NCBI RefSeq assembly: GCF_006538365.1
Contig: NZ_BJKN01000002.1
Coordinates: 944,411 to 1,008,410 of the forward strand
DNA length: 64,000 nucleotides
Source: Moorella sp. E308F
GTDB taxonomy: Bacteria; Bacillota; DSM-521; Neomoorellales; Neomoorellaceae
Direction: 5' to 3'
The notes beneath the pieces were generated by a model. That model saw only the letters and a program-made list of their open reading frames with translations, was not told the DNA's origin and ran no database searches. A program made the position numbers and the translations under genes. Below are positions 46,751-48,907 of this stretch, one piece after another. Position 1 is the stretch's first letter; every line of letters starts with the position of its first letter.

Positions 46751-47938
46751 TTATAATTCAAAGGGGATCCAGTAAGCAGTCTGCTCAACTTTGCCGGTCC
46801 TGGCGATTTCCTTTAACTTCTGGTACATGCGGTAGAATTCGTCGTGGGTGACTACCTCGCCGCCCAGGCCGGCTACAAAACCGACAGTCTTGACTTTATC
46901 GCCGTAATCATAAAGGGCTGCCCGTAGTTCGGAGAGGAGGACGCCACCGTTGCAGGAAATGCCGAAGTTGGCTGAGACATCCAGGACGCCTATGGCCTTG
47001 AATTTAGACAGCCGCTCTTTTATCTGTTCTGTCGGGAAGGGACGGAAGGTCCTGAGCCTTGCCACACCAACCTTTTCTCCCAGATTGCGCAGGCGTCGGG
47101 CCACTGCTTTGGCCGTTTCCATGTGGGCACCCTGGCCGAACATGATGATCTCAGCGTCACTCGTCAGGTATTCTTCCATATAGGGATCATATTTGCGGCC
47201 AAAGATGCGGGCGAATTCATCGCAGGCTTCTTCTAAAACCTTGTGCACGTTTTTAACGGCCTGGTAGCGCTGGTACTGCAGGGGCGGTCCCATGGCCGGC
47301 TCAATCTGGGCACCAATAATCTGCGGGTTCCTGGGATCCAGGACATGGTGGTTTTTATAAGGCGGCAGGAATTCCTTGACCTGGGCCTCGTCGGGAATAT
47401 CCACCCGTCCCAGGATATGGCTGACGAAGTAGCCATCCAGGCAGGCATACTGGGGCAGCAAAACCCGCGGGTCTTCCCCTACCCGGTAGTAAATAAGGGT
47501 ATTATCCAGGGCTTCCTGGGGTGTAGAGGCCCAGCCCTGGATCCAGCCCTGGTCCCGACAGCACTCGGCATCGGTATGCTCTTCGCCAAAGTCACCAGGC
47601 GGGTCCAGGGTGCGGTCGGCTATGGCCATTTGCACCGGCAGGCGCTCACCGGAAATGGGGGAATAGACTTCGAAAGCATAGGTAACCCCCACGCCGGAAC
47701 TGCCGGTGAAGACCCGCGCTCCGGCAGCTGAGGCCCCGTAGACAACGCTCAGCTGGGCGTGCTCGCCCTCGCCGTGAATGAACTCGGCATCGAGTTCACC
47801 GTCGGCCACCATACGGGCCAGTTCCGACATAATGCCGGTATAGGGGCGGATGGGATATGAACAGATCACATCAACATCTGCCAGGCGGACGCCGTGGGCT
47901 ACTGCCACGCAACCAGAAATATTTCTTATTTTACCCAT
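46751..47938 (-). CDS. Oxalate oxidoreductase alpha subunit (POR alpha family)
   Basis: From ATG 47938 (AGGAGGTG eight bases upstream) the protein is 395 residues. In this numbering the substrate region reads [10 protein letters not shown] with Arg31, where pyruvate enzymes have YPITPS. Arg109 and Asp112 fall in [10 protein letters not shown]. Arg31, Arg109 and the switch-loop Asp112 are residues described as oxalate-binding in the M. thermoacetica enzyme, and the length agrees. This argues strongly for oxalate over pyruvate. A GTG three codons upstream would shift the numbering by three. Confidence 0.9.
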
Positions 47939-47959
47939 TTTTTTCACCTCCTGAAAGGA

Positions 47960-48907
47960 TTAATTTTTAAAATCTAATTCTGGAACGCGGGATATGGCAC
48001 CGCTCGGACAGACGGCGGTGCAGAGACCGCAACCTTTGCAATATTTGAGGTTAAAAGCAGGTCCATCGTCGGACATGGCAATGCAGGAATCCGGGCAGGA
48101 GATCCAGCAGGTCCAGCACTGGGTGCAGGCTTCCTGGTTGAGGACGGGTCGCTGAATGCGCCAGTTACCGGTAACCATGCCTTCATTTTCTACCTGCGGG
48201 GAAGGAACGGTACCGGCAAAGGGCATTTGCTTCAATAGCTCTTTCGCCGTTACGGCTACTTCTTCTACCACTTCATGGGCCGGTAGCTCCCTTATCTGGG
48301 CTTCCTCATAACCCCGGCGCATGGCGGCAGGATTTTTGACTACTGCTGCCAGGTTATCAATATCTACAATACCGGTTGCCTTGACAACAGCTCCGGCAAT
48401 GGGTGCGGCTATACCAGCGCCAATACCGGTAGCGTCAGTCGCTCCTTCAGCCCCGGATAGGGTCATGACGGCCTGGGCCATGCTGTTGGCATCCACAGTG
48501 ACAATCCGGGCCAGGTTTCCGGTATCGCCCAGGAATTCCAAAATGGTATCAATGCTACGCCTGGTATTAACCACCAGGGTGGCGCCCGGCTTGATACCCT
48601 TCAAGATAGGGACACCCTTGACCAGGGCTTCCTCAACGACAACGACAATATCGGGATTCTCATTTTCGTAAACGTATTTGCTTTCAATGGGATCGCTGCT
48701 GATGCGGGCGTAAGCCCGTACCGGTACATAGATACGGTCGGGGAGATCGACATAGTTCTCCCACGCTTGCACATATTTGCCTTCTTTAGCAGCAGCTTCC
48801 GTTAAAGCCACCACTACGTCGCGGGCGTCTTTATTCATGACCACTCCGCGGGCCCAAACGGTAATCTGCTTTAGGTTGGGTTCGGCAAAGAGTTCTTGGG
48901 TGGACAA
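47960..48907 (-). CDS. Oxalate oxidoreductase fused gamma-delta subunit
   Basis: A 315-residue fusion. The gamma part (about 1-220) has the QITVWARGV start and GAGIAAPIAGAVVKATGIVD. The delta part carries two [4Fe-4S] motifs: CTQCWTCWISCPDSC near 262 and CKGCGLCTAVCPSG near 291. It is the first gene of the gamma-delta, alpha, beta set, 155 bases after the CDC48 ATPase gene. It passes electrons from the TPP site to ferredoxin. Fusion and length match the known Moorella subunit. Confidence 0.88.
   Translation of the reverse strand: MSTQELFAEPNLKQITVWARGVVMNKDARDVVVALTEAAAKEGKYVQAWENYVDLPDRIYVPVRAYARISSDPIESKYVYENENPDIVVVVEEALVKGVPILKGIKPGATLVVNTRRSIDTILEFLGDTGNLARIVTVDANSMAQAVMTLSGAEGATDATGIGAGIAAPIAGAVVKATGIVDIDNLAAVVKNPAAMRRGYEEAQIRELPAHEVVEEVAVTAKELLKQMPFAGTVPSPQVENEGMVTGNWRIQRPVLNQEACTQCWTCWISCPDSCIAMSDDGPAFNLKYCKGCGLCTAVCPSGAISRVPELDFKN

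Follow-up and report, generated by a model that had tools for sequence, protein, structure and literature searches.

The window, by which we mean the whole stretch of 64,000 nucleotides of Moorella sp. E308F DNA that was analysed, almost certainly encodes the Moorella oxalate oxidoreductase (OOR) at positions 45777-48907, with an activity that is predicted from the sequence. The enzyme itself is not new, as it is an orthologue of the solved protein from the same genus, Moorella thermoacetica. From its genomic surroundings, we tentatively propose that OORs of several phyla depend on a CDC48-type ATPase as dedicated activase or assembly factor, and that an LctP-family permease has replaced the transporter OxlT in part of Moorella. 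We know of no earlier ATPase partner of this kind for any 2-oxoacid:ferredoxin oxidoreductase. A literature search, with the founding OOR papers outside its reach, returned no mention of a CDC48-OOR partnership. The features of the cluster are listed in Table 1.

Table 1. Features of the OOR cluster, with positions in the window
Feature	Length	Positions	Strand	Remarks
LctP-family permease	536 aa	43887..45497	minus	PF02652; downstream of beta
Inverted repeat	16 bp	45714..45751	minus	shortly 3' of the beta stop, before the permease gene
OOR beta subunit	314 aa	45777..46721	minus	TPP-binding motif and four conserved Cys
OOR alpha subunit	395 aa	46751..47938	minus	ATG at 47938, stop ends at 46751
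OOR delta subunit	315 aa	47960..48907	minus	TTG start; gamma-type domain and ferredoxin domain
CDC48/p97/VAT-type AAA+ ATPase	733 aa	49063..51264	minus	directly upstream of delta
GntR/FCD-family regulator	232 aa	51506..52204	minus	PF00392 and PF07729

Identity of the oxalate oxidoreductase genes

The subunit genes follow each other in the order delta-alpha-beta on the minus strand, with spacers of 21 nt (delta/alpha) and 29 nt (alpha/beta). A preliminary description of this DNA had taken the three POR-type genes for OOR rather than for a pyruvate enzyme, and most of its details hold: the translation of alpha agrees with the start at 47938 (the ORF as mechanically called has a GTG start three codons upstream of this ATG) and with the placement of YPIRP, Arg31, Arg109 and Asp112, and the lengths of 395, 314 and 315 residues are exactly those of the Moorella enzyme. 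The range 46751-48907 that it gave for all three genes needs correction, since it covers alpha and delta only and beta lies outside, at 45777-46721.

In a phmmer search of all solved chains, the best match of each subunit was full-length and belonged to 5c4i, the M. thermoacetica OOR (5exd and 5exe are further entries for this enzyme), namely chain A for alpha (E = 7.6e-264), chain C for beta (2e-211) and chain B for delta (8e-189), which excludes chance. Identities counted from the alignments are 95.7% for alpha (395/395 residues covered), 95.2% for beta and 86.0% for delta; alpha differs from chain A in 17 of 395 residues with unchanged active-site motifs, and delta, the most divergent subunit, shows 44 differences, many of them near the ferredoxin domain. 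All three subunits score above the cut-offs of NCBIfam OOR equivalogs (alpha, NF045791, 832.6 bits, cut-off 500; beta, NF045792, 635.4 bits, cut-off 590; delta, NF045790, 596.0 bits, cut-off 230). The warning that a generic annotation would misname the genes is justified for the Pfam names (POR_N, PFOR_II, TPP_enzyme_C, POR), but NCBIfam, the set of models that NCBI uses for annotation, names all three subunits correctly. Cysteines for three [4Fe-4S] clusters are present and identical to those of 5c4i, with one cluster at Cys 24, 27, 52 and 225 of beta, which are kept in all complete relatives, and two in delta (261/264/267/271/275 and 290/293/296/300). The delta subunit is split into a gamma gene (~212 aa) and a ferredoxin gene (~105 aa) in many lineages (L009, L010, L013, L014, L103-L105, L108, L109), and Moorella and its near relatives have the fused form.

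Active-site residues and the pyruvate alternative

In alpha, YPIRP occupies residues 28-32 with Arg31 inside, and the stretch [10 protein letters not shown] begins at residue 107 and thus contains Arg109 and Asp112; Asp116 is also present. All four residues coincide one by one with those of 5c4i chain A, which bears out the correspondence that had been claimed for the first three. On the OOR side, the alpha alignment comprised the window sequence and its counterparts in the genus, in other Clostridia, in Methylomirabilota, in Thermodesulfobacteriota and in one betaproteobacterial MAG, which are 56-98% identical to the window alpha. The non-OOR set consisted of this genome's four other alpha homologues and of three that come from sister genomes. 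Arg31, Asp112 and Asp116 are found in every aligned OOR alpha and in none of the non-OOR homologues, which read YPITP, and the genome's own four lack Asp112 and Asp116. Arg109, in contrast, is common to all aligned 2-oxoacid oxidoreductases and therefore not diagnostic, so that among the residues that had been put forward as evidence for OOR, Arg31 and Asp112 are specific and Arg109 is neutral. This agrees with the literature, in which Arg31 in YPIRP, as opposed to Thr in YPITP, marks oxalate oxidoreductase, Arg109 is conserved in StOFOR2 too, and Asp116 is the residue of the switch or plug loop that is part of the bait-and-switch mechanism of OOR (PMC5020499). The identification as OOR thus follows from the near-identity to the solved enzyme, the three equivalogs, and the clade-wide Arg31, Asp112 and Asp116.

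Could the complex in principle be a pyruvate (or other 2-oxoacid):ferredoxin oxidoreductase? Pyruvate enzymes have the same fold and Pfam domains, and the second-best solved match of alpha is indeed a four-subunit pyruvate enzyme, 9bt4, but this match reaches 256 bits as compared to 878 bits for OOR, the Thr of YPITP is replaced by Arg, and alpha remains far below the cut-offs of PorA_Arch (337.4 bits, cut-off 550) and TIGR02176 (90.8 bits, cut-off 911). Moreover, a single-chain PFOR-type gene (G000:C1:794754, L024) and additional POR-type sets are present elsewhere in the genome, so that pyruvate metabolism need not depend on the OOR genes. Structurally, 9bt4 and the single-chain enzymes 1kek and 6cin share the TPP site and the Arg109 position with the window complex, but they carry YPITP and lack the Asp112/Asp116 loop, and their gamma and delta subunits are separate, or all domains are in one chain, whereas the gamma and ferredoxin parts are fused in the window delta. 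On the grounds of motif, score and separate PFOR-type genes we reject the pyruvate enzyme, to which we assign a very small probability.

A 47%-identical alpha of a Desulfobacterota MAG (G604, loci L128 and L157) has YPIRP and an Asp at position 112, with an Ala at 116 (PGAFG); it scores 429 bits against the cut-off of 500, has no CDC48 gene nearby and lies near an aconitase-like ORF. It is possibly a sister enzyme for another substrate.

OOR decarboxylates TPP-bound oxalate independently of CoA and passes the electrons over three [4Fe-4S] clusters to ferredoxin. We take the chemistry and the residue roles from the M. thermoacetica enzyme, all residues being present in the window, and accordingly predicted is a CoA-independent oxidation of oxalate to two CO2 by the window complex: oxalate would bind at TPP via Arg31, Arg109 and the Asp112-Asp116 loop of alpha, the bound oxalate would be split, and the electrons would leave via the cluster in beta and the two clusters in delta. 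An alternative oxalate route would run via oxalyl-CoA decarboxylase, but no match over the cut-off turned up in the nine Moorella genomes searched. The host genome is near-complete (3.06 Mb). M. stamsii and M. mulderi have OOR alphas with 98% identity to the one encoded here, and of 11 genomes in the genus, 7 contain OOR over the cut-off; the near-complete congeners G008 and G010 have neither OOR nor CDC48. OOR-type genes in MAGs of Methylomirabilota, Thermodesulfobacteriota and Betaproteobacteria suggest that CoA-independent oxalate oxidation extends beyond acetogens.

A CDC48-type ATPase linked to OOR genes

The ATPase gene next to delta is the sole CDC48-type copy in the genome. Its product lies above the TIGR01243 cut-off (829.6 bits, cut-off 802.65), contains the CDC48 N-domain (PF02359), CDC48_2 (PF02933) and two AAA domains (PF00004), and has intact Walker A and B motifs as well as aromatic pore loops (KYYG, WWG) in the AAA rings. 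The best solved relative is VAT (5g4f), and as a CDC48-type protein it is predicted to be a hexameric ATP-driven unfoldase. With VAT, p97 and Cdc48 (5g4f, 5c18, 6oaa) it shares the N-domain, the two AAA rings and the Walker motifs, and KYYG is also found in the VAT D1 pore, but the window protein differs in being bacterial and operon-bound to one metabolic enzyme.

In nearly all of the OOR loci that were inspected, a CDC48 gene adjoins OOR. For an unselected test of this linkage, both families were searched in the same 398 Bacillota genomes and then in 247 Desulfobacterota genomes. In Bacillota, OOR occurred in 28 genomes, CDC48 in 34, and both in 27, and in all 27 evaluable genomes CDC48 adjoins OOR, about one delta length away from alpha; in the 28th OOR genome (G028), the contig stops upstream of the GntR gene and the gamma gene. 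OOR over the cut-off was found in six Desulfobacterota genomes, with CDC48 adjoining in all six. The frequencies of CDC48 in genomes with and without OOR, 27/28 versus 7/370 in Bacillota (Fisher p = 2.5e-34) and 6/6 versus 20/241 in Desulfobacterota (p = 7.8e-7), differ strongly, with p-values that assume independent genomes and are made too generous by kinship. As the genomes are related, a tree of the CDC48s is the more reliable test: in it, the 38 OOR-linked sequences group with one from a betaproteobacterial OOR genome in a single clade (support 1.000) that spans at least three phyla and stands apart from gas-vesicle-linked and other bacterial CDC48s. Distances between CDC48s correlate with those between the beta subunits (r = 0.78) and between the alpha subunits (r = 0.66), and alpha and beta correlate more tightly with each other (0.87).

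The ATPase could be a mere passenger, a chance neighbour carried along with OOR, as whole operons can be inherited or transferred. We consider this improbable, as CDC48 is missing from 363 of the 370 OOR-less Bacillota genomes and is thus no housekeeping protein in this phylum, as it stays although the arrangement of the locus differs (GntR on either side of CDC48, different transporters), and as one CDC48 clade accompanies OOR across phyla. In each of the seven OOR-less Bacillota genomes with CDC48, a GvpN gas-vesicle gene over the cut-off lies close to it, and G133 and G284 possess a second copy among gas-vesicle genes besides the OOR-linked one. Outside OOR operons, bacterial CDC48-type ATPases were also seen in gas-vesicle clusters with GvpN at L093-L101 and L132.

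There are three exceptions. One MAG (L007, genome G401), which may be incomplete, has OOR and a gas-vesicle-type CDC48 only. In the betaproteobacterial MAG (L015, G402), the OOR-type CDC48 lies away from OOR; in L131 (832-4714), this gene adjoins a formate-tetrahydrofolate ligase gene, and it showed one in-frame stop in the search. In the CDC48 of L008/L107, the second AAA ring is degenerate (Walker A GLSGLGKT, Walker B DRID) and looks inactive.

Possible roles of the ATPase

Linkage and shared descent suggest to us, as a reading that may or may not prevail, that CDC48 serves as a dedicated remodeller that activates or assembles OOR, for example by pulling on a subunit end and thereby freeing inhibited or misassembled enzyme. 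That one metabolic enzyme is accompanied by a p97-type motor across phyla suggests a need for ATP-driven remodelling of OOR, and such a need, if true, would be hidden from work on purified OOR. M. thermoacetica OOR has reportedly been purified and studied without the ATPase, which counts against such a role. The alpha subunit ends with a tail, YWxPFEL, that is strongly conserved in most OORs and missing from the homologues, and this tail might be the handle for the ATPase; as it has diverged in L009, L010 and L056, this stays an idea. The AAA+ motor CbbX, the Rubisco activase, is likewise encoded beside one carbon-metabolism enzyme. It belongs to a different AAA+ class, and the likeness is one of gene placement.

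What other functions could be envisaged? CDC48 might dispose of OOR instead of activating it, and unfold the enzyme for a protease once oxalate is gone. Archaeal and eukaryotic relatives do unfold substrates, and both CDC48 rings have aromatic pore residues, but one dedicated ATPase per enzyme would be unnecessary for disposal, the C-terminal tails of CDC48 are unconserved within the clade, with a mean modal conservation of 0.27, and a recurring protease partner was not seen in the OOR loci. Disposal therefore appears unlikely to us, if slightly less so than the passenger explanation. A proteasome-type role in particular was rejected, as neither a conserved C-terminal motif nor a protease neighbour was seen. 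Linkage is not physical contact, and CDC48 could also serve something else in oxalate metabolism; what is left of our expectation goes to such roles other than activation or assembly, disposal, or a passenger.

Transporter, regulator and surroundings

OOR is the core of a conserved module that consists of a GntR regulator, the CDC48 ATPase, delta, alpha, beta and a transporter, in which the LctP-type permease would bring in oxalate and GntR would control the cluster. In several relatives, the transporter is OxlT: OxlT-type genes over the TIGR04259 cut-off follow OOR beta directly in several lineages, both within the genus and in further families of the phylum, which independently supports oxalate as substrate of OOR. 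In G001, G005 and G009 of the genus, an OxlT-type oxalate/formate antiporter gene lies exactly in the place of the permease gene, in loci that are otherwise syntenic. OxlT was not found in the genome of the window, G002, G003 and G007, which instead have LctP-type genes at that place. The window permease matches Pfam PF02652 and remains below the TIGR00795 cut-off (271.6 bits, cut-off 341.15). Being in the place of OxlT, it is a candidate oxalate importer, and most likely it does import oxalate, perhaps as a replacement for OxlT; the transporter exchange at a fixed place directly predicts a new oxalate permease. The OxlT-type gene after beta in L162 (G009) was read as two parts in the search, with a single in-frame TAG, which may reflect a broken gene or an error in the sequence.

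Most OOR loci contain a GntR gene, and the product of the one in the window probably regulates the OOR cluster. The inverted repeat downstream of beta has the longest stem in the set, where the number of such sites is not above that in shuffles, and it is a possible terminator or operator. Genes of the dissimilatory sulfite reductase system (DsrM, DsrP, DsrO, DsrK and the end of DsrB; window 52461-57516 and 63209-64000) adjoin the OOR cluster; Dsr genes are not beside OOR in L161 and L162, and they are syntenic in several congeners.
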